Positions 1-12,950 of a stretch of 64,000 nt of DNA are shown here, one piece after another. Origin of the DNA: Dacryopinax spathularia (taxonomy: Eukaryota > Basidiomycota > Dacrymycetes > Dacrymycetales > Dacrymycetaceae). Both the position numbers and the translations under genes were made by a program. The stretch spans positions 1,860,001 through 1,924,000 of the forward strand of contig JBBPFI010000002.1 of the NCBI GenBank assembly GCA_037974965.1, in the 5' to 3' direction. The notes beneath the pieces were generated by a model. That model had not been told where the DNA came from, did no database searches, and was given only the letters and a program-made list of their open reading frames with translations. Position 1 is the stretch's first letter; each line of letters begins with the position of its first letter.

Positions 1-164
1 ATCTGGAAGATATCTCTCCTTGGGATCGACGTCCTTCAGGTTTTGCGACTTCGACAACGCAGACGACGATCGCAACGAGCAGGTGTAGAGGACTAATACA
101 TGCTACTGGTCAGAAAGAACCCGAAAGCCCATGTCCGAAGGTGAATAGGATCGCATTCTTACAT
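1..164. other. Left flank of the Plavaka element; nothing recognised
   Basis: The stretch lacks the GGTAACGC motif. Read on the minus strand it does not continue the F-box/LRR protein that the right end interrupts, so either the 3' part of that gene was lost or the left boundary is different. No gene is supported. Confidence 0.4.
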
Positions 165-204
165 CAGGAAAAACCCTGGGCGGCAACCCTACTTAGTGGG
201 GTAT

Positions 205-257
205 GCCGCTTCAGGCGCGCGGGAGGTAACACCATGCGTTACCTCCCGTTACCTCCC
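205..257. repeat. GC-rich subterminal inverted repeat (left end)
   Basis: GCGCGCGGGAGGTAAC is followed a few bases later by its reverse complement GTTACCTCCCGCGCGC, with a second GTTACCTCCC copy between the arms. The arms contain the element's GGTAAC core. It lies about 40-90 bp inside the left terminus, where CMC elements usually place transposase-binding subterminal repeats. Confidence 0.6.
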
Positions 258-399
258 GCGCGCTGCCGCCCCGGACACTTTCGTAGTTATTAGTTACACG
301 AATTGTATTATGGTAGCTACTTCCTAATGAAAAAAAATTATGAACAAATTCAATTTTTGTTTGAGAGGGGGAAAAGAAATTTGCTGGAAACGAGTTAAG

Positions 400-2884
400 C
401 TAACACCAGTGCTGGTGTAACACCAGTGCTGGTGTATCCGCAAAGTCGTCTGGCGAGTCGGCCCGGTTGAGGGCAATGAAAGCCGTTACCCCCGCTTTAT
501 ACTCGTGCAGCCAGCGGCGCTCCATCCGATCCTTGACCACCCGCAACCAGCCGTTTACATCTTCCAGGAGCTCTTCTCCACGCTTAACGCTTCGGGGACC
601 GGGTTCACTTAATGCGATTTGCCGTCTCTCGGTTTCCAGAAGGCGTTTCGAAGCCCCCCAGAATCGCAAGTCGTAGAAGCGCCAGGTAACGTGTACTGAC
701 GCTTCGAAAGTCAGTACACAATGAATCAGCCCGGGAGGCATGATCCATGAACCGTTACGTCGGTCAGGCGTTACCAGCACGTGCTGGAGATCTTCCAGGT
801 AACGCAGCACGAGGCTGCTCAGTGCTGGCTCGCGTCCGGATGGTTGGAAGTGCGCCATGATGCGCATGTTGCGAGGTGTAGGGGGAGCCATCAGCCAGAG
901 CTTGCGAGGACCTCTTCCCCCGGTAGAGTCCAAATGGATGACGCCATAGAGGGCTGACCAGCCATCCCGATGGCAGTCGCTAACGCCTCCAGCCGGGAAA
1001 TGATGGGCATAGACATGCACCGTGTGGTTGGGGCCAAGGTCCTCATACGAACCCGTTACCTCGCGCCAATCCTTCGTATAGTCCTCCGGGAGGCGATATT
1101 GGACTCGACCGAGTCCATGAGGCTTGGAAGGCACGTCGGTAACGCCTAACCAATCGATAGGGCTGGCCGGATTATAGCCCTCTGCATGGACGAGCATCGA
1201 AGCCATGATGTACGACGCTCCATGGGTAACGGCTTCGCCCGTGGCCAAGTTGACTCCGGGCAGGTTGATTCCTCGGTAGCGGCGGAGGTCGTCGATCGCC
1301 AGTGTCAGATCGCCTCCATACACTCGTCCCGGACAGCCGATATATGGCGTTTCCGGCCCCGTTGGACCGAATGTTGGGATGGCGTAGGGTAACGCCATCA
1401 GCTCCTCCAGGATTTGCTTCCCCTCGACGACGCAGGTCGCCAGCATGTTGAAGCGCCTCGTCCATTCCTCGTGGAGAGGGATCAGCCAGGCGTTACCCAC
1501 CGCCGTGGCGTTGGCTTGCAGCTCGTCCAGCGTGAGATTGAGGGTGGGCGGCGCGGTGAACAAGAGACGAGTCGTCTCATCCTCGATGAGCGGGTCGAGA
1601 TCGATCGGTTCCGGCGTGGAAGCCGGGTTACCATCTTGGAGCGGCTGAGCAGGCGGTGTGGGTTGGCGGACAGGGCTCCCAAGCTCAGGCGAAGGCCGAT
1701 ATTCATCAGCGTTACCCGGCAGATCGACGTCCATGAGGGTGTCGTCCATGGCGCCCTGACCCCATCCAACCTCCTCCAGTATGTTCATATCGATGTCCTC
1801 AGCCGTACTTGTGGGCTGAAGACGGGCGGCAGTACGCGTTACCGAAGGTGGGGGGGACGCTTCAGTCGTAATGTTGCTCCGGCCAGACCGCTTGATGATC
1901 ACCTTGAGCGGATTATGTTCTTCTATAGAGTAAACGTTAGTCACTATGCCTATGTCTGAAAAGCCAACCACAGCTTACCTCGCACGATCGTAAACTTCTC
2001 TCCTTGAGACGCGTTACCAGCTCGCTCCTTCTCTTCATCCGTTACCCCCGCCCCCTCCTCTGACTCCAACTCATCGGTAGGGATGCGCACTCTTCCCTTC
2101 CCCTTCCCCTTCCCCTTCCCCTTCCCCTTCTCCTTCTTCTTCTCCTGCTTCTTCTCCTTCTTCTTCTCCTTCTTCTTCTTCTCCTCCAGGCGCTCGGCGG
2201 GCCCTTCTTCCTTATCCGTTATCAGCTCGCCATCAGAGTCGAGCCGGTAGGTCTCCATCTGGTCCGCCTCGGGCTCAGAGTCGCTGGTAACGGTCGTCTC
2301 CTCGATCTCATCCGTTTCGTCCGAATCGATGTGGGCGATGTTGGCGAGAGGGTCACGAGCCGGGCGTTTAGTACGAGAACCTAGATTCAAAAGATCGTGT
2401 TAATCGCTTAGACGGATGAGGAGATATCACACTTACGAGATGGGGTAACGGGTGACGAGTTACCCGTTATCCCTGCCTTGCGACGCGCCTTGAGTCGCGC
2501 CTGTCTCACAGCACCGGGCTTGGCCCAACGAATGCCATCTTCCACATAGATGCGGAAGTCCTTGAAGGCGTTCTCGCCAGGCCGGAATCGAGGGGCATGA
2601 CGGCCCACCAAGGCGATCTTGACCTCCTCCCAACCGTTATCCGTCTTGAGGGCGACCTGTTTCGCGCCCCAAACGATATGTGCAAGGTCACCAACCTCAC
2701 CCACATCGTCAGGGGGAAGAGTCTTGCCCGAACCAGTTGTCGTCCACAGGGCGTATTCGACTTGTTCAAGGCCATTGGGCGTTTGGGCCTGAAGAGTCTT
2801 GATGGTTGGCGTCCCTATATGCGTCACCCGTTAGCGTTATCCCGACCACGCTGGCCCAAACGACTTACAATTGACCTTAGGCAT
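400..2884 (-). CDS. JmjC-like 2-oxoglutarate/Fe(II) dioxygenase carried by the Plavaka element
   Basis: The model has four exons on the complement: 2884-2869, 2814-2437, 2380-1979 and 1922-400. Each junction has GT-AG ends and keeps frame, giving 772 aa. The ATG at 2884 begins MPKVN and splices into WTPTIKTLQAQ. Residues about 130-265 are acidic and then lysine-rich with a KGKGKG run, which looks disordered and DNA- or chromatin-associating. The C-terminal half carries a JmjC-like fold signature. CHRDGW supplies the metal-binding H583-x-D585, LWLMAPP is the following strand, and MPPGLIHCVLT supplies the second metal histidine, H666. A lysine in RKLW could bind 2-oxoglutarate. In JmjC proteins this H-x-D...H triad binds Fe(II) for lysine demethylation or protein hydroxylation. 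Substrate here is unknown. The gene lies 3' of the transposase on the same strand and is full of the element's GTTACC motif, so it belongs to the element. The JmjC call rests on motif order, not a profile search. Confidence 0.7.
403..436. repeat. Tandem pair of short palindromes at the 3' end of the JmjC-like gene
   Basis: ACACCAGTGCTGGTGT occurs twice in a row with one A between copies. Each copy has 7-bp complementary arms around TG. The pair covers the last codons and stop of the JmjC-like gene. It might form a hairpin at the 3' end or be a simple duplication. Confidence 0.55.
2094..2190. repeat. CCTTCC/CTTCTT low-complexity tract coding a Lys/Gly-Lys run
   Basis: The plus strand shows repeated CCCTTC units followed by CTTCTT units. 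On the coding minus strand these give a charged EEKKKKEKKK segment and a KGKGKGKG segment in the JmjC-like protein. The tract is probably length-variable through slippage. The frame stays open. Confidence 0.7.
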
Positions 2885-3432
2885 CTTGATACCGACTCTG
2901 AAGGGGGAGAGGTTTTATTTGAGCGAGAGGGGAAGAGAGGTAAGTGGTAATTGAAGGCGTTAGCGGTGTTGAAGGACTTTACGCGTCACCCTGTGCCCGT
3001 GCTTCTCATCTTCTCGTGCATAAGCTTCTTCATAGCCACTAGTCCCTTGTGCAAGCATCGTCTTCTTTGTAGGGTCCTAGACACAGCCCATCATTAGAAG
3101 CATCATCAAAGGGCGCGTCAATGCGGGGTAGGACCCTATTTACCCGTTATGGTCGGGGTTACCCGTCATCCGCCTAAGTCCCTCATTGGCCTCCTCCTCC
3201 TAGGGGTGCTCCTCCTCCTCCTCCTCCTCCTCCTCCTCGTTCTCCTCCTGATCCTCCTCATCATGATGCCCATCACCATGAAGCTCGTCATCCTCCTCAC
3301 CCTCATCGTTGTCGTCCTCCTCCTCCTCCTACCCCTCATCATCCTCATCGGCCTCGTCATCCTCATCCTCATCCTCATCCTCATCCTCATCCTCATCCTC
3401 ATCCTCCTTCTCGTGCTCGTATTACCTTGTCG
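2885..3432. other. Intergenic spacer with a CTC/CCTCAT microsatellite
   Basis: This lies between the start of the JmjC-like gene and the end of the transposase gene, both on the minus strand. From 3187 to about 3240 and from 3288 to 3415 it consists of CTC and CCTCAT repeats. Long open frames on either strand code only Leu/Ile or Arg/Met runs and are not genes. TTACCCGTTATGG at about 3140 and further GTTACC sites show that the spacer belongs to the element. It should contain the promoter of the JmjC-like gene. Confidence 0.6.
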
Positions 3433-6419
3433 TTAGGATAGGACAAGGTGATTAAACATATGATGGTCGATATAGGGATTGATGACGAACGCGTTACCTT
3501 GATCCAATACCGACTCTGGGCCCCAATGTGTGGGCACATTGGGGCCCATGATCGGGATAAGATGACAAGAGCGTATGATCGATCCGAGAGGGATGACTTC
3601 CCCTTGGGGGAGGCCATCCACTAGTGGCATCTTCGTCACCTCAGCCAGTCGAGCCGCGTTACCGCCCGCTCGAGGGTTTCTGAACCACTCCACATATGCC
3701 AGAAGCAATGTGGGTAGTTCGTCCGTCACTGGCACACGAAAGACACAGCGCAGGCGGCCAACAGAGAGACCTTTGAGTCCCCCTGAGCGACCTGTTGCGC
3801 CAGTGTCAATCAGGACCGTGTCGAACTGGGGTACAGCGGATGGCCCTCGGGTAACGCGTTCACAGGCGGGTCGGCAGCGAATCACATTGCGCCCAGGCGT
3901 ATCTTGACCATGCAGCAGCGATAAGGTGACGACCAACTTGACAAAACAGTCAAAGCGTGTATCGGAGTCAGGTCGCCACAAGGTTTTCGGATAGGCCTGG
4001 TCCAGATAAGCGCAGAGCTTGCCCACCAGATCGGGCACATGGAACATGTGCTGGATCTGTTCCACTTTCAAGGCTGGGAAGGGTGAGAATTGGGCCACGG
4101 AATGCTTGGGTATGGGTGGGCTCTGTGTCGGCACAGAATCGGAGGTAACGCCTTGGGTAACGCTTGGGTTATACCATCGCAGAAACGCGTCAAACTTGGC
4201 GACACGCTCCCTCCTATCCAGCCAAGTCGTCATGTGGGCTATGTAGTCTTTGCGATTACCAGCACGATAACCCATCTTGACATAGTTGATGTGCAGCCGC
4301 TCGGGCAGCTCGGTGTCGAAGTTGTCGGGGGCACCCAACCGTCGGATGGTGGCCATGTAGTGCTGGAGCTTGTGGAGCTTAGGGATGCCATCGAATCCCT
4401 TACAGCTCTCCGCCGCGAGCAAGGCGTCCTTATTGGAGTGGAACTCTTGAAGCAGGTGCTCCATTCGATTGAGGCTGTCTTCAGTGGGCCAAGGCAAATG
4501 CGCCAAATATATGAAGTCGAGTAACGCCTTGGCCGCTCGAAGGACTGAGGCGTTGCACCGACCTGGATTGCCGAGCAGTAGGGGTACAAACACTTTCTCC
4601 ATATTCTTGTGCTCCGTACCTGTGGTTTGACTCAGTCCCGAAATGCCTTTAGAGAAGGCGCGGGTTTCGAAATGGGGTGGGGTAACGCGGTAACGCTCGT
4701 CGAGTTCTTCTCTTCCCACCAGGTCCAGACACCACTCGACCAGGTGATCCTTGAAGACGCCTTTGTGGAGCTCATGCAAGCCGTCCGGGGTGAGACAGGC
4801 GAAGATGTCGGTGTGTGGCAGTCCGACCCAGAACGGCTTCATGATGGGCAACATGCCGATCGGTTGGACCTGCCTCTTGAACTCGGTAACGGCCTTACGA
4901 GGTCCATGGGAAGCGGCGTGCGCTTCGGTCTGGGTGACGATCTTCTCAAAATCGGCCTGGCGACGCAAGCGGGGAAAACCCAGAGAGCCCTTTTCCTCCG
5001 GCTCGACCAGGCACATGGGACATCTCTGGCTCTTGCAGCAGGCTACGAGGCACTGCTCTGGATAGTCGGCACTGTACGCAGCCAAGATGGGGAAGATTTG
5101 GCGGACGTTACCATCGCCACAGGTCATGGTAACGCCTGTCCGTCCTGCTTCCCCGAGCGGTTCGAGCACATCGGCCATGCACTGGTGGAACAATTGTCGT
5201 TCCAGTAGGGACTTCCGGGCTTGTGAGACACCGACAACCTTCTGTGTGGGCAAGTACGCCAGGAGCATCATGGCGTGCTCGCTCGGCTTGCGACGCTGAC
5301 TCTTGCAAATGTTGCCAATCGACAAGTAAACTGGATACGCCGCTGTGTGGCTGGTGAAGTGGCTCAGCTGGGTCTTATCGCTCGCCAAAATGACAGGACA
5401 TATGGTGGCTGCATCGCCCAGGTGTGCCTAGCGAGTACGAGGGATGAGTAACGCGTCTGAGGTACCGGTAACGCATGGGTTACCTGTAGCTCACGCCACC
5501 AGTCCCCATCTGCCATCTCCGCATACACTCTCGCCCTCCCATCCGAATGAAGAGTGGTCTGCCGAGGTCGATAAGCCATTCGAGACGCGAAATGGGGATT
5601 CCCCATCAGTTCTCGGACCAGTTCCACAGGATTTCGGAACCACATCTCGACTGCCTGGGGAGCTGTCTGTCCAGGGACGGGGTCGATTGAATATGATCGA
5701 CAATGCCAAGGAGGCGTTCGAGGCAGACTGTCTACGGTCTGCAGCATTCCTCTGCTCTTATCGAACACACTGTGTTCCCGTGTGAGCATCTGCAAATAGG
5801 CGTTACCAATCCGTGAGCGACTACACAGCACAGTTAGACGTACCACTTGTGTTCTCAGCAGCTCATCGAGCTTATTACGACTAACTCCTGCATTGATCGC
5901 CCAACGCACCCATTCCCATTCCTGAAACGAACCGAATGGTCCCCAATTCGATGCGTTACCTGCTTGCTGTGCTGCTTCCAGGGCCGTCTTCCATTGCTGG
6001 AACTCGTGACTCTGCTTGCCCAGACTACTTCCACCTGGAAGAGGCTCATAAAGAGGGCGTTGGGAGGCATTGATTGGGGTCGTGGCGGCCTGTGTAGGGA
6101 ACGCGTTACCATGACTCGGCGGGTGACGGGGAAACTCACCATCCCAGTCCGTGCCTAACTCCCCTTGCTCCTCTCTCCAGCCGGCAGGGGGCTCATCGTC
6201 GACTCCTACATCCCAGTCATGCGCTGCATAACGGCCCCCCCTCCTTTCGGCCAATCGCTGACGGGCATGTTCCAGTCCAGCCATGCGGCACGGCAGTGAT
6301 GCGGCGGCATGTTTCCGCCTAGCATCGCTGGTTTTGAAGCGTTTCGGACACCAGAGGCAGTGGAGCTGGTCTCTAGCGCGGTATGATTTGGGTGACAAAG
6401 GCCTGGAGACCGGTGTCAT
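3433..6419 (-). CDS. Plavaka-family transposase
   Basis: Two exons on the complement, 6419-5484 and 5427-3433, join in phase 0 across a 56-bp intron to give 976 aa, within the usual range for Plavaka transposases. The N-terminus has a C2H2-like finger (LHCLWCPKRFKTSDARRKH). The splice joins WWRELQ to AHLGDAATICPVILASDKTQ, and the run into YPVYLSIGNICKSQRRKPS is the most conserved block of the family. Further family marks are CLVEPEEKG, the LTPDGLHELHKGVFKDHLVEWC block (with the conserved ELHKG), and a C-terminal FVINPYIDHHMF. These belong to the DDE/RNase-H-like core that cuts and joins transposon ends. The intron itself carries a GGTAAC and two GCGTTAC sites. No internal stop is seen, so it may be active. 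The very 3' end could include one more small exon, but a stop at 3433 is simplest. Confidence 0.9.
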
Positions 6420-6749
6420 AGAGGGAAAATCAGGCAGAGGTCGTGCTCACTGGAACCGTTATCCGTTACCCAGGCCCCCTTTTTGACCTGCTTGCCCTTT
6501 CTGCCTCGCTGCAGTGTGTGTTACCGCCAATGATATATCCTTCCAGAGGCCTTTGTTTATCTCGTTGAGTCGATTTGGCCCTACAGTTCTGCGGTGCAAC
6601 AAGCAGAACGCCTAACCAGCAGGTGGCCTGTCGTTACGGCCTCATCTCCAGGGGAGTAACAGGTAATGTTTGTAGCCCTCCTAAGGCCCATGACTGCGTT
6701 GTGAGGGGTTCTAACCACTGGTATGTGCTGCCCGGCCATGTGGAAACAT

Positions 6750-6806
6750 CTAATTAGCGGAGGAATGACGGAACGTTACCGGGTAACGCTAATCCGGTCA
6801 CGTGAC
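6750..6806. repeat. 57-bp direct repeat, copy 1
   Basis: It matches 8592-8648 in the same orientation with only a handful of differences. Shared blocks are CTAATTAGCGGAGGAATG, CGGAAC, CGGGTAACGCTAA and GGTCAC(G/A)TGAC. The weaker similarity extends upstream to GGTAATGTTTGTAGCCCT at about 6662, matching 8492. The two copies bracket the motif-free island. Confidence 0.8.
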
Positions 6807-6807
6807 C
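6796..6807. promoter_or_regulatory. Perfect E-box palindrome GGTCACGTGACC
   Basis: This 12-bp perfect palindrome is centred on CACGTG, the usual site of bHLH factors such as Cbf1 or Pho4. It closes the repeated 57-bp block. The second copy has CACATG instead, so only one of the two promoters has the full site. Function is inferred from sequence only. Confidence 0.4.
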
Positions 6808-6896
6808 TCCCCACGTACTATCGCTGGGACGCCATACCCCTGCGTTCCGCCCAATCACGTCACAGCGTTTCTGATCCCTGAAGGCAGGCTAAGCAG

Positions 6897-7145
6897 GCAT
6901 GCCAGCATCTCCTGTGAGCTCTGTTACAGCTATCGACCCATAGGTGCTCCAATCGCCGGAGAGCTAGCTTGTCTGCTGTCCCCTGTATGTGCTTGTGTTA
7001 TAGCTATTGACCCATCACTGCTCCAATCGCTGGTGAGCTAGCTTGTCTGCTGTCCCCTGTATGTGCTTGTGTTATAGCTATTGACCCATCACTGCTCCAA
7101 TCGCTGGTGAGCTAGCTTGTCATGCTGTCCCCTATATGTACTTCT
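6897..7145. repeat. 74-bp tandem repeat, about three copies
   Basis: The unit starting GAGCTAGCTTGTCTGCTGTC begins at 6961, 7035 and 7109, so the period is 74 bp. The first two units are nearly identical and the third breaks off after about 35 bp. A more diverged unit precedes them from about 6897 (ATCGACCCATAGGTGCTCC). No GGTAACGC motif lies in the array. Confidence 0.9.
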
Positions 7146-7209
7146 GCCACCCAGTCAGAGTTGCCCATCTCTGATCAAGCAGACAATTGACCAGGAGAGG
7201 CCTATCTGG

Positions 7210-7467
7210 ATGCGCCGTGTCACCACCATACCCTTGACGGTGGTGACACGGCTTTTCTTTTCTTTCGGCAGACACTATCCTTGTCCCACCATTGCAAAAG
7301 GTGGTTCATGCGACCGGACATTCACCCGCAGAGGGGATGCACTCCGACACGGTAGGTCGGCCCATTTCATGGTCGACCTAATGAAATGCCATATTTGTGG
7401 CCATGCGTTCACTCGGAGGGATGGTATCATGCTTCATTTGAAATTAAACAGATGTTTGAAGATGTAG
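7210..7467 (+). CDS. Small C2H2-type zinc-finger protein
   Basis: The open frame from ATG 7210 gives 85 aa. It ends with two tandem zinc-finger-like modules. The first reads CDRTFTRRGDALRH with a second histidine in GRSAH and a preceding Cys eight residues upstream. The second reads CHICGHAFTRRDGIMLH and ends in Cys instead of the last His. The FTRRD pattern is typical of basidiomycete nucleic-acid-binding fingers. The first third of the frame may be an intron or UTR, since a pyrimidine tract and CAG precede ACACTATCC at 7271. The gene sits in the motif-free island between the transposase and DUF6532-like genes. It may be an accessory gene of the element or a captured host fragment. Confidence 0.5.
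   Translation: MRRVTTIPLTVVTRLFFSFGRHYPCPTIAKGGSCDRTFTRRGDALRHGRSAHFMVDLMKCHICGHAFTRRDGIMLHLKLNRCLKM
7218..7251. repeat. Inverted repeat GTGTCACCACC ... GGTGGTGACAC
   Basis: Eleven-base arms are separated by about 11 bases and form a strong hairpin just 5' of the zinc-finger coding region. It could act in the transcript or be a binding site. Confidence 0.7.
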
Positions 7468-7873
7468 GGGCGCCCAAGGGCGCAGAAGGCAGCGAAGGGC
7501 CAAAAAGTGGGGAAGGAGTGAGGTGCTGAGGGACGGGCTTGAGACGCTAAGGGAACGAGAAGCGTCTGCGTTGGTCAACCATTCTTCTAGGATGAAGGCA
7601 TCGATTGACCTGGAGAAAGTCGAGGATCAGGCTTTCAAGCAGAAGAATATGAGAAGTTAGCACCACTCCCTTTCATGATTCTTCCGTGCACTCAGGGGTC
7701 ACCCAGTTCTTCCAAGGAAGGTGGAAAACAACCCGCTTCATAAGGTGGAGGGAGTAAAGGGGGGCAGTAGCCTCTCTACATTGAAGTGCCCACCTTGTTG
7801 GATTCGCCACGCTTCAGTGGCATCACTGAAACCACCAGTGCTTAGGCAGAACAGACAATGCCGCACGCCTTCG
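7468..7873. other. Spacer after the zinc-finger gene
   Basis: No coding region or known RNA is recognised. The stretch lacks the GGTAACGC motif, like the rest of the island. Confidence 0.4.
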
Positions 7874-8191
7874 TTCTCTCCATTACCATCATGGCGCCTA
7901 ATCGTCAAGCTATCTCCAGTTTGCCCTCCAGGCAATGATCTCGCTCACCCGGGGATGCAAGGAGTGAATATCAACCCGACTCCGACGATCCGACTACCGA
8001 TGCCATAGCACTTTTGTAACTCTAATAGGTTGTTCTCTCCATTACCATCATGGCGCCTAATCGTCACGCTATCTCCAGTTTGCCCTCCAGGCAATGATCT
8101 CGCTCACCCGGGGATGCAAGGAGTGAATATCAACCCGACTCCGACGATCCGACTACCGATGCCATAGCACTTTTGTAACTCTAATAGGTTG
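7874..8191. repeat. 159-bp direct tandem duplication
   Basis: The unit starting TTCTCTCCATTACCATCATG at 7874 is repeated immediately at 8033 and ends with CTCTAATAGGTTGT in both copies. By eye the copies differ at about one base (CGTCAAGC against CGTCACGC). Such near identity points to a very recent duplication. Confidence 0.93.
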
Positions 8192-8591
8192 TCAACCATA
8201 TGCATACACGTTGAACAGAATACTGAGATGCTCGAGACCAATCAAGCGACCACACTGCACTCACCTCCTCTCAAGCTGGATGCTCGCCATCCTGATGTGT
8301 CCTCCCACCGGCCCTTCTCTCCATCAAGGGTATTGCAAGTGACCAGCTTATGGCGGAAGCACATGATCAGGCAGACAAGTACCCTCCCCATGCCATGTTT
8401 TGCCATGTTACACTCAATGGTAAGGCAAGCTCCTCAAACCAAAAGTGCCATCCTTATCCCACCATAAGTTGCCACTGCTGCCTCTTGCCAAATGGTAATG
8501 TTGTAGCCCTGCAAAGCCCCATGGGGGCGTGTGGAGCGCTCCAAGCGTCATGCCATGCGCATATGGACCCTTATTGTGTTATTTCAGACAA
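8192..8591. other. Right part of the motif-free island
   Basis: No gene is supported. GGTAATGTTGTAGCCCT at about 8492 matches the sequence before the first 57-bp repeat copy, so the last 100 bp belong to the duplicated promoter-like block. Confidence 0.4.
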
Positions 8592-8648
8592 CTAATTAGC
8601 GGAGGAATGCCGGAACTTTTTCGGGTAACGCTAACGGGGTCACATGAC
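8592..8648. repeat. 57-bp direct repeat, copy 2
   Basis: This is the partner of 6750-6806. It lies about 110 bp before the start of the DUF6532-like gene and includes CGGGTAACGCTAACGGGG and CACATGAC. It probably serves as a promoter element for that gene. Confidence 0.8.
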
Positions 8649-8759
8649 AACAATATTTACAATGGTCTTGATGCCGTGCACCAGGTTTAAATGGAAGCGG
8701 ACCCACTTACATCGTCCATCACCCTCATCCACTTCCTTGAGTTACCCTCCACCTTTCCC

Positions 8760-10411
8760 ATGGCACGTCCCCGCACGCGCACCAATGACCTCAGAGGCGT
8801 TACCTCCGCTGGGAACCGCCGAGGGGCCCTCACCCGTCAGCACCAGTTGAATTAGCCTGTTTTACCCATCGCTGACGCTTTGGAAGCCATCATAGCCGCC
8901 CCACCCAATCGACACAGAGGCACGGTTCGGCTGCGGGAGGCCCCAGGTGACCTCTTCGGCCCTACCCCTGATGGGTCGCCTGATGAACTAGTTCTTCCAG
9001 CTCAACCGTTCCTTTCCGAAGGAGAAGAGTCTGATTATGCTCCTCATAACGCGGCCAGCGATGCTGAAGACTCTGAAGGAGAAGGACCTGTGGTGACGGG
9101 AGAAGGGGGTAGAAGCCTCCAGCCGGTGCGATTCTACGCTGCGCACGTGCCTTTAAGTCAGCTGGATGCTAACGCGCAGGACAGCCATGGACTTCCCAGC
9201 CTACCCCGACTATACCGCGTCCTGGATACACTAGCAGCTCAGGTACGACTTCATTCATCCTGGTAACGCCTTGGGTAACGCCTTGGGTTCAGGTACTCCG
9301 TCATCCCCCTGGACCTCTGAAGCCGATCTGGGTGCTGTGGGAGGTATCAAGCGCAAGAGAAAAGCTCGAGGGGAGGGAATGATGGGCGGGTATGGTGGTG
9401 GGAAGATCCGTGCGTGTGATCATGCCCCTGCCGAGCAAGCGTTGCTCGGTGATGCCAAAGCAATATACTGGGCAACGTTGGGTGCCGTCAACCCATATGC
9501 TGAGGATGATGAGAAGGAGGACCTCATTGACCAGTCCCTTCGGGAGGCTGCAGATACGCGAAGAGTGCAGTTGGTCCTCCGAGATACCCATCGGAAATAT
9601 GTGAGTGAGCCTGTGGTAACGCCCCCGTTCACAGGGCATCTGACACACTTCCAGTTAAGAGAATGCACTTCCAAGTTTCGTTCTCGCGTCGTTGAAGCCG
9701 CTCGGATGGCTGTGAAGGCTCATTTTATCACTCCCATGATCACCAAACACGTCACTAACGGACAGTGCATCCATGACCCCGCGTTTCAAGCGACACTTGG
9801 CTCCGAGGTTCGAAACCTTATTGATGAGAACTTGTATATCTACCAGGTGAGTTCCAGCCAATCTTAGGTTCCATGGCTAACCTGTTTTGGGCTGACCAGT
9901 GCCCGGAAGCGCGACGTTTGGCATACCGATCCGCAGCGATTACAGAGGTGATCACCACGGCGTGGTTCAAGGATAAGGAGTCCCTAGCGATCACGGTCAA
10001 GAGGCTCTACAATCCTGTACCCTTCCCCACCATTGCGTTGGCCGCTGCTGCTGTGAGTACACTTTCTCGAGCGGGTAACGCATTGGGTAACGCTTTCTCC
10101 CAGGTCGAGTTTTGCCTCGAGGAGTGGAAGAGCGGCAAACAGGCCACCCAGCCATGGCGAACATCGGAGAAATGGCGTTACCTGGACCACATGGAGGGAT
10201 TGCAGCTATTCCAGCAAGGCCAACCGGCCGCGGTCGGTCGTCTGCAGGAGTGGTTCTATGAACAAGGCTGGTATGTGTTGATTTCTGGTAGAAGGGGCCC
10301 CTACTGATGAGAAACAGCTTGCACGCCGGTGTAGCACCTAAAGAAGATCCCAAGCGACGACCACGGTTGACTACGGCCTCGTTTGCCAATGAGGAGGTTG
10401 CAGACGGGTAA
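8760..10411 (+). CDS. DUF6532-like protein carried by the Plavaka element
   Basis: Likely exons are 8760-8835 (MARPRTRTNDLRG), 8887-9242, about 9293-9846, 9900-10050, about 10104-10273 and a last exon ending at the TAA at 10409-10411. The N-terminal half is acidic and disordered (SEGEESDYAP). The C-terminal half begins FRSRVVEAARMAV and continues through AYRSAAITEVITTAWF to PFPTIALAAAA. This resembles the DUF6532 domain, common in Agaricomycetes and of unknown function. Two introns each carry a pair of GGTAACGC motifs, and the stop codon lies inside a GGGTAACGC motif. The joint between the second and third exons leaves a one-base phase problem in my reading, so that splice site is unresolved or the copy is shifted there. 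Divergent from the transposase. Confidence 0.6.
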
Positions 10412-10766
10412 CGCGCAGGGTAACGCTTGCTTGCCTTGCTCTTGTGCACGCCCCGGGCCAGTCTGAATTTGTGTAATAATAATAATATTAATGTATCTAT
10501 TTACCTATCTATTTAAGTACGTAGAGAGCGCGCTACAGCGCTCTCTAGTCACTATGCCGCTGCCGGCGAGGTAACGGCGGCGGGCTGCCTTGACCACGCC
10601 ACCGCCCTGACCTCTCCCACAGGCGGCAGGCGCCCCTATAGCCGCTCTGCCGCGAGGCGGGCATGATATCCCGTCCGCACCCCGCGGCAGAGAGGGGGGG
10701 GTGGCTGCCAGGCGGCAGTGACGGTACCGCCGTCACCGCCCTCTGCCGCCAGCTCGGTTTTCCCTG
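10412..10766. other. Right subterminal region of the Plavaka element
   Basis: After the last gene come an AT-rich stretch with TAATAATAATAATATTAATG, a perfect hairpin at 10522-10547, and about 220 bp of GC-rich inverted repeats. These include CTCTGCCGCG with CGCGGCAGAG, and GTGACGG with CCGTCAC. The terminal GGTTTTCCCTG follows. A GGTAACGG motif lies at 10571. Confidence 0.6.
10522..10547. repeat. Perfect 10-bp stem hairpin TAGAGAGCGC ... GCGCTCTCTA
   Basis: The arms are fully complementary and enclose a 6-base loop GCTACA. It lies between the end of the DUF6532-like gene and the GC-rich terminus. It could aid 3' end formation or be a protein-binding palindrome. Confidence 0.8.
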
Positions 10767-10770
10767 ATGA

Positions 10771-12107
10771 AGCTTGCGTATAGTAGACGTATGGCCTGCA
10801 TCCGGGGCTTGTCCAGGCGCTGCTTGCAGAAGCCCAACAACATCGCCCAAAGTTGTCCAGTTCAGCGGCCATTCATCCGGAGCGATTCTATGATACAACT
10901 CCATCGCGAGCACTTCCAGATTCGGTGCGACCAAGCTGCCGAAAAGCAGACCTCGCTGTGGCTCGTGGAGGCCGATGTGCATCAGGCGCAGGTGGGGTAG
11001 CGCCACGGTTTTAGAGAGCAATACCAGATCTTGCCTGGGAATTCGCTCAAGGGGACCACGCACCACGATATGCAGTTCTTCTAGCAGCGGCGTGCGGTCG
11101 AGCAGGGAAAGCAGGCCGGCAGGCGGAGTCGGGTTCGACCAGTCAAATTCCTCAGCCAGGTCGATCTGGAGCGAGCGGCACCGGAGGAGTCCTGGAGGCA
11201 TTGTGTCCAGGGTTAAGGGAAATAGCACCTGCTTCAGCTCTAGCGTTAAGAGCCTAGGAAATTCCAGGGCAAATAGAACCTTCAAGACGGTGGAACAAGC
11301 TGCAACGCACTCGTCCCGCGGTTGTTCCCGCTCGGGGAAGGCGATGTGAAGGCTGCGCAAGGTGCTCTGGGAACTTGAGATGCATCGCTCCAGAGATTCG
11401 AGAACGGTGGAGTTCAGAGTGTGAACGCCGAGAATGAGCTGGACGACTCTCGAAGGGCAGATGCGAGTCTGGTACTCGTCGATTACTCTGGGCAGCGCCG
11501 GTCTGCTTCCAAGCGCCACTTCGACTGTGAGGGGGACGGTCTTTGACCGAGCGAGAGCGGACAAGGATCCGCGACCGTAAATGTGTCGGTCCAAATACCA
11601 TGGATGGACCGCCTCGAGGGACTCGGTTGCCTCCTCTTCCGGTGGGAACTTTGGGTTATGGAAAAGCGCGCCATTCCAAAGGTTGGCCGTGTCCAGGGCC
11701 ACAGCCCTCCATCGTCTTGACGTTTGCGAAAGGTGAGAACCTACTTCTTGATCGTGCCCGGCGGTGAACGAGGGCAATCGGTACTCTTGAAAATACGTAT
11801 GCTCCTCGAGCCACCGTTGGTGTGCTTCCACAAAGATCAAGCGGAGGATATCGTCTGGAAGGCGCGATACGGGCGATAGGACGATATTTCGCTTCTCAAT
11901 CACATCTTGTATCCGTTCATGCAGTATATCCTCCAGTTCATGCATATGCACGACTTGCTTGAGCGTGTCCGAGAAGAGGGAGTCCGCCGATCGGGCGAAC
12001 CGGGACGGTCCAATTCGGGCCAAAGTGTCTCGGAGCTCCTCGCATTGGCGTATAGCTTGACTCAGCAGCTCAGCCCGTTCGGAAGCGTTGTAGAGGTCCT
12101 CAGACAT
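10771..12107 (-). pseudogene. F-box/LRR-like gene truncated by the Plavaka right end
   Basis: From ATG 12107 (MSEDLYNASERAELL) the frame reads about 445 aa like its two paralogues in this window. An N-terminal helical segment (ELRDTLARIGPSRFARSADS) is followed by the F-box core LSPVSRLPDDILRLIF at about residues 75-90, then a SRRWRAVALDTANLW block and leucine-rich repeats. The similarity ends at TSTIRKL, exactly where CATCAGGGAAAACC, the transposon terminus, begins. The frame stays open into the transposon and stops at 10545-10547, giving a chimeric tail of about 75 residues. The lost C-terminus includes the conserved ALTEMAARRSAAG segment of the paralogues. F-box proteins recruit substrates to SCF ubiquitin ligases; this copy has probably lost its substrate-binding end. 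Confidence 0.82.
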
Positions 12108-12950
12108 GTTGTAGGTGTTCACAAAGATGGATCGAGGGCAAGTTTGTGCAGTTCAGAGTCGAACTGCAAGAGCAGGTCCTGTACAGCCTGGACGGTAACG
12201 GAAGCAGAAGAGCACGTGCTGACAATGAGGCGGCACTGGCAAGGGCGGTTTAAGGAGAAGACGGCTAGTTATACTGACATTCTCAATCGGTGCAAGGCGA
12301 TTGTCAGGACTAGGGAACTATAGCATCAAGGATATGCCATACCCAAGAAGAAGGACGTTCATACCTGCGACGGATGCGTTGTGATGGATTGGGCAATTGA
12401 AACCCACGCAAAAGGCCCGCGTCCTACATGTAGCGAATTTGTACGAGGACAAGGAAGACAAGGCGCTCCCGTCCTGATAGCATATTTCCAACGAAAAGCT
12501 GGACATTCAGAAGGAGATCCACGCCCTTTATGCTAGTTATACAACAGCGCTAGCAGTCTTGTAGCAGCGGCAATCGCGCCTCAGCTCAGGCTGTATCGGT
12601 CCTAACGTCTCCGTCTCCACAAACCGTCAAACGCCGGCCCGGGGTTGGTGGGGTATTATCAGTCACCTCTCGATCTCGCATGGCAAGTCAGCTTGCTGGA
12701 GTGCATGGAGGCGGGAGAAGCGCGACATCCAACGAGGGGCCCGTACAGCTTCTCGTGTCGTCGGAGTAAGCTGCCATAGGGAGGGTTACATGTAGCAGAA
12801 TCAAGGTCGGTTCCCGCACAGACACGCCCGAGTACTGCACAGCATGAGGCAGCAAGTAACGCAGGTCGGCGGAGAAAGGCATACCAAAGAGCCCCAGGAA
12901 TGTCTTCCTCATTAGACTGTGGTCCTAATTGGGGGCATTGCCTAGCCTCC
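12108..12950. other. Intergenic region upstream of the truncated F-box gene
   Basis: No gene is recognised. Short open frames on both strands have no recognisable motif. The right part approaches the outer limit of the large inverted repeat. Confidence 0.4.

Follow-up and report, generated by a model that had tools for sequence, protein, structure and literature searches.

Short DNA words dispersed through Plavaka and Ty3 elements of Dacryopinax spathularia suggest shared protein-binding address labels

The stretch of Dacryopinax spathularia DNA studied here (the window: 64,000 nucleotides of contig JBBPFI010000002.1, hereafter C2, positions 1,860,001 to 1,924,000) contains a PlavakaB-type DNA transposon, element A, in which the word GGTAACG is dispersed over the whole body, exons included. 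The comparison of element A with its other copies, with a Ty3/gypsy retrotransposon that carries the same word, and with elements that carry words of their own suggests protein-binding address labels that are common to different mobile elements and may help them evade silencing. We give a probability of about one half to the reading that the sites serve a binder that coats the element, probably against silencing as in the VANDAL/VANC system of Arabidopsis, with retrotransposons riding free on it. All comparisons were made within one genome, with one or two copies per element.

Element A holds 45 GGTAACG/CGTTACC sites (25 on the plus and 20 on the minus strand), the first at 237 and the last at 10570-10576. 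These are 45 of the 49 copies in the window, all before position 10600, the other 53 kb having four. The core GGTAAC, counted on both strands, has 52 of its 64 window copies within 1-10600, and GGTAACGC has all 32 of its copies there. The host-DNA background predicts about 4 GGTAAC and 1.6 GGTAACG in 10.6 kb, and dinucleotide shuffles of the element give 0.7 GGTAACG (maximum 3 in 60). An earlier note on this DNA had put the GGTAAC copies at well over fifty, which was right as to density and slightly high as to number; it had also called the core rare outside the element, where examples indeed exist at 12194, 41291, 45444 and 59011. The sites are evenly spread over the body (variance/mean 1.18 in 500-bp bins), and no tandem array of the word was found besides 12-bp doublets. 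One GGTAACG-free stretch, at 6782-8624, holds tandem repeats of 74 bp (6922-7143) and 159 bp (7873-8192).

As the earlier note had described, the motifs lie in exons of all three main genes (JmjC-like, transposase, and DUF6532), in introns, and in intergenic stretches. Coding sequence holds 32 of them in 6191 bases (5.17 per kb; 17 forward and 15 reverse) and the rest of the element 13 (2.94 per kb). None of the 32 occupies the forward frame that reads TAA, which the same note had expected to be empty. Codon-preserving shuffles of seven coding segments do not reproduce the count, their means totaling about 3.5. The observed numbers exceed or equal the shuffles in six of the seven segments, among them the JmjC exon (11 motifs; mean 0.87, maximum 5 of 300) and the main transposase open reading frame (ORF; 10 motifs; mean 1.0, maximum 4); part b of DUF6532 is the one that does not rise above its shuffle maximum (3 motifs; mean 0.99, maximum 3).

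A second full-length copy of element A, on contig C9, is 94% identical and carries 44 of the 45 window motifs at aligned places, and the window retains 44 of the 47 C9 sites, compared with 65% for other 7-mers. In 9652 well-aligned columns (local identity of at least 80%), changes were observed in 4 of 332 motif columns (1.2%) and in 541 of 9320 others (5.8%; Fisher p 2.6e-5), while the 12-bp flanks of the motifs differ at 6.8%. Changed columns number 3 of 234 in motifs and 312 of 5898 elsewhere for coding sequence, 1 of 98 and 229 of 3422 for non-coding sequence, and 1 of 58 and 115 of 854 for 4-fold degenerate sites (p 0.003). CpG is kept in 46 of 47 cases within motif sites and in 509 of 601 elsewhere. 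Because the constraint extends to 4-fold degenerate and non-coding motif columns, it indicates selection on the DNA word beyond the protein, and we regard selection on GGTAACG at the DNA level as nearly certain. The retention of sites in the second copy and the 4-fold constraint also fit the proposal of the earlier note that the word is a binding site dispersed along the element. Insertion or slippage was rejected as a source of the sites, because the differences between the copies are point substitutions.

Contig C8 carries a broken copy, whose two separated parts lie 40 kb from each other (C8:753.8-756.2k and C8:796.1-803.9k; L050, L043, L044), with stops in the transposase and one stop in the JmjC N-terminal exon. 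Its 3' part keeps 13 of 27 sites (random 7-mers, 54%), 9 of the 14 losses being CpG transitions, and its 5' part keeps 12 of 17 (random 7-mers, 49%), with CpG transitions in 4 of 5 losses. That the losses on C8 are mainly CpG transitions is a hint of CpG methylation on dead copies.

The same word is dense in a Ty3/gypsy chromodomain retrotransposon (L039), in which gag, protease, reverse transcriptase, RNase H, integrase, chromodomain, and long terminal repeats (LTRs) are all present. It has two copies, at C2:467.5-473.7k and C2:1990.8-1997.0k, with 100% identical LTRs and 5-bp duplications. The element holds 54 GGTAAC and 34 GGTAACG in 6.2 kb, and its pol has 35 GGTAAC against a codon-shuffle mean of 6.7 (maximum 12 of 200). 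The two copies are 97.9% identical and differ by 129 substitutions (17, 12, and 49 at the three pol codon positions), of which one falls in the 330 motif columns (0.30%, compared with 2.19% outside). Element A (n = 52) and the Ty3 element (n = 47) have the extended consensus GGTAACGCnT in common, with G at +6 in 87% and 64%, C at +7 in 75% and 55%, and T at +9 in 58% and 60% of sites, respectively. No DNA similarity between the two elements was detectable, so the word was gained independently, which would most simply reflect one and the same putative binder. The Ty3 element encodes gag and pol only, with no evident binder gene.

The closest relative found for this Ty3 element, at C14:241k (73% protein identity over the query; 2 kb read), bears another word. 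None of the 11 comparable GGTAAC sites in these 2 kb is present, and the codons at these places give different amino acids in 8 of the 11. This relative contains TCGGAAGC five times in 2 kb, where 0.16 is expected and none of 400 codon shuffles reaches five. TCGGAAGC is also the word of a Plavaka element on C5 (element C; 14 kb read), which has 39 copies in 12.5 kb, compared with 0.6 in shuffles, and exceeds codon shuffles in two ORFs. Four of the nine distinct inverted TCGGAAG pairs found genome-wide lie at C14:238.7-244.4k, and two of these are identical and 5.7 kb apart, an LTR-like spacing. A glutamine-rich ORF of 787 residues (C5:1599-1601.5k; L064/L063) is found in the TCGGAAGC element. 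A single-clade origin of the word habit was rejected, given that in BLAST the transposase of element A is 48% identical (135 residues) to that of a word-less element (L025) and 29% identical (190 residues) to that of element C.

A third word occurs in element B, a Plavaka-like element at C14:789-808k (16.5 kb read). GTCATGA is present 79 times, compared with 4.0 in shuffles, a total that includes both orders of the palindrome GTCATGAC, which is itself present 35 times (0.5 in shuffles); the consensus is AACCGTCATGACGGTT. The word lies mostly outside the tested ORFs, with 10 of the 79 in four of them. More pairs lie beside JmjC relatives at C4:523-539k, C11:394-410k, and C1:2148k. In the four elements, A, Ty3, B, and C, density is far above shuffles, and the words are private, with cross-counts of GGTAACG, GTCATGA, and TCGGAAGC from 0 to 2. 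Of 18 further Plavaka loci, each sampled over 3.4-4.0 kb, 17 gave no such dispersed word, and GGTAACG occurs at most once in any of the 18. An LTR element of 10.7 kb, X (L046/L047, C13:310.3-321.0k; copies on C15 and C18), is dense in TAMCGC/CGKTAMCG, with enriched counts of 17 GGTAACG and 93 TAMCGC. It was rejected as a full member, the GGTAACG columns having changed between copies in 4 of 70 cases compared with 275 of 5580 (p 0.74). For the C5 element and X, fitting a motif model gave no convergence on a sharp motif.

In the mechanism that we propose, each motif would be bound by a sequence-specific DNA-binding protein, and 40 to 50 dispersed sites would let this protein coat the whole element. 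That a protein binds the word is, from the sequence evidence, highly probable; that its function is anti-silencing is about evenly balanced, judged by analogy. The binder would be encoded by a Plavaka-type element and act in trans, the candidates being the JmjC-like protein with its N-terminal domain, the zinc-finger end of the transposase, and DUF6532. Coating may counter silencing through chromatin or CpG methylation, an effect that the JmjC protein could carry out, and Ty3 elements could ride free by evolving the same word and change word on changing partner. More tentatively, elements may form guilds by address word, in which a Plavaka-type element makes the coating anti-silencing protein and retrotransposons join by evolving dozens of word copies, even where this alters their proteins; they could also switch guild, as the two sister Ty3 elements would have done. 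The earlier note had also offered end recognition and self-marking. In their pure or private form both are unlikely, since the word is shared with a Ty3 element, other Plavaka-type elements have other words, and the sister Ty3 elements differ by a word switch; its comparison with VANDAL/VANC is an apt working model.

The JmjC-like protein is a plausible effector, and its involvement has somewhat less than an even chance. Its gene (400-2887, minus strand, ATG about 2887), supported by sequence, homologues, and fold, has four exons, as deduced from GT-AG and reading frame, with an N-terminal "VGDL-GW" domain in 2439-2812 and 1984-2379 and a JmjC fold in 403-1920, where the Fe ligands HxD...H and the K are present. 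The protein has no Pfam match. In Foldseek its predicted fold is nearest to PHF2, PHF8, and KIAA1718, the PHF2 match having E 6.5e-11 with a TM of only 0.33 (query) and 0.44 (target), an rmsd of 13, and a model pLDDT of 64. No TET/JBP fold is among the best 50 of 979 fold matches. The window protein and 5 of 12 others (6 of 13 aligned rows) retain the HxD, the lysine, and the distal H. The N-terminal domain is kept in relatives; its model is too poor (pLDDT 56), and it has no fold match at E <= 0.001. No relatives were found in viral contigs. Of the three Plavaka-type elements, two have genes for JmjC-fold proteins, and the C14 element (L061/L062, C14:787-805.5k) has three such genes, two of them without metal ligands and pseudo-enzyme-like. 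Elsewhere, JmjC-like genes are flanked by CAAGTACCGAG tandem-repeat clusters (L051, L052, L053, L066; C7:365k, C7:964k, C2:1748k), an arrangement nearer to the VANDAL pattern, and the C7 JmjC element shows such tandem clusters; the word of L051-L053 was rejected as a dispersed motif, being mostly tandem repeats. A small C2H2 zinc-finger ORF of element A (7111-7467, plus strand; PF00096, E 1.4e-7) was rejected as an essential binder, since it is poorly kept in C9 (two frames, second finger altered) and broken in C8.

Several observations weigh against a coating binder with free-riding retrotransposons. In the 5' fragment on C8, site retention exceeds pure decay, so that decay is less clear there. 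Conservation per site between the Ty3 copies is modest for GGTAAC (54 of 54, p 0.002; reverse direction 54 of 55, p 0.013) and for GGTAACG (33 of 34, p 0.064), and 49 of the 54 Ty3 sites are in one orientation, a bias not expected of a symmetric coat. Direct-repeat pairs of TCGGAAGC are not above control genome-wide, and a search for outward inverted pairs gave none in the C5 or C14 elements. The JmjC ORFs of C14 contain 2, 4, and 2 words, not clearly above the codon-shuffle values of 1.2, 1.9, and 1.2, and the word is thus mainly non-coding in C14. Element X has related words with weak conservation (TAMCGC p 0.04). Finally, no JmjC-like gene was found in the Ty3 element or in the 14 kb read at the C5 Plavaka element, so a JmjC protein does not accompany the words throughout.

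The alternative that survives best, which we nevertheless consider rather unlikely, is that the words are read by DNA-binding proteins of the host, such as Myb/Reb1-type general regulatory factors. The elements would then have evolved the sites to attract these proteins, which could serve them in transcription, replication, boundary function, or the exclusion of nucleosomes. This would account for a Ty3 element without evident binder and for words common to different transposon classes. However, GGTAACGC is not enriched genome-wide (641, compared with 866 for the reversed word), and at least three words in three Plavaka-type elements, with such low cross-counts, would imply several host factors, a separate one taken up by each lineage. 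A role of the sites in transposase binding, for end recognition or the assembly of a transpososome in the manner of the subterminal repeats of CACTA elements, would agree with the motif near both ends (237 and 10570) and with the zinc-finger-like N-terminus of the transposase, a weak match (E 0.18-0.26), but is very improbable given the even spread over the body, the presence of the word in a retrotransposon, which has no use for such a transposase, and the lack of any such word in all but one of the sampled Plavaka loci. Marginally less probable still is an RNA-level signal for splicing, export, or small-RNA evasion, which the orientation of the Ty3 sites would favor, but element A uses both strands, within coding sequence too, and has sites outside genes. 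An artefact of composition, codon usage, or mutation, despite the part of the count that amino-acid content explains (the pol shuffles of the Ty3 element), is already refuted within this genome by the dinucleotide and codon-preserving shuffles, the retention of CpG in the sites, and the point substitutions between copies.

Element A, a full-length transposon, runs from 162 to 10769 (10,608 bp) and has the ends CATCAGG...CTGATG, as delimited by the C9-copy alignment, the terminal sequence, and PF18759; it reaches slightly beyond the span of 205-10580 given in the earlier note. The PlavakaB termini CATCA..TGATG are present in both the C2 and C9 copies, and GA flanks both sides of the C9 copy as a candidate target-site duplication, none being clear in the C2 copy. 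The transposase (3433-6446, minus strand) consists of two exon-like ORFs, 5364-6446 and 3433-5427, with PF18759 at E 5.2e-21 and 2.5e-86, and is intact in the C9 copy. The DUF6532 gene (8856-10307, plus strand) has several exons (PF20149, E 8e-6 and 4e-17). An F-box-like ORF on the minus strand (10545-12152) overlaps the right end of element A, which may have inserted into its 3' part.

If the proposed reading is true, sequence-specific anti-silencing arose independently in fungi as a common good exploited by other transposon classes, and the evolution of the address code is testable from sequence alone. It would also account for transposon coding exons that are packed with a single DNA word, and would open a way to proteins able to direct chromatin effects to chosen DNA. 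Among the literature matches listed, none describes dispersed words in fungal transposons, which is not proof of absence.

Among known systems, TnpA of CACTA/Spm, from the same broad transposase clade, is a self-encoded motif binder with an epigenetic effect; it has subterminal repeat clusters, whereas in element A the sites cover the whole body. PlavakaB elements have, in the passages cited, signature termini CATCA..TGATG, a target-site duplication of 2 or 3 bp, and in some families TET/JBP (Kojima 2025, PMC12730594). Element A resembles them in its PF18759 transposase, its termini, and possibly the candidate 2-bp duplication of the C9 copy, and differs in its dispersed motif and in a JmjC-fold protein where some PlavakaB families have TET/JBP; the passages of that paper on motif or binding site contain nothing on a dispersed motif. 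Fission yeast Epe1 is described in the source cited as an anti-silencing JmjC protein (PMC7192584). The window protein resembles Epe1 and the KDM7/PHF8/PHF2 group in predicted fold and metal ligands, and differs in being transposon-encoded, in its extra N-terminal domain, in the 12-16% identity of the fold alignments, and in the loss of ligands in 7 of 13 aligned paralogues. For Arabidopsis VANDAL/VANC, the cited parts of two papers describe element-specific words of 8-9 bases that differ between related elements, and VANC21 in non-coding regions with tandem repeats (PMC5735166, PMC10398659); the proteins that bind such words are related to each other, and VANC6 words are likewise present in AT9TSD1, an element without relation to VANDAL (PMC5735166). 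Here, in contrast, the elements are fungal Plavaka and Ty3, two transposon classes share a word, and the sites of elements A and C lie in coding exons (32 of 45 in A). We do not assign element A, known here from sequence, to that system because its sites lack the non-coding tandem-repeat arrangement; what the two have in common is a family-specific short word enriched through the element and, likely, an effect on the whole element.
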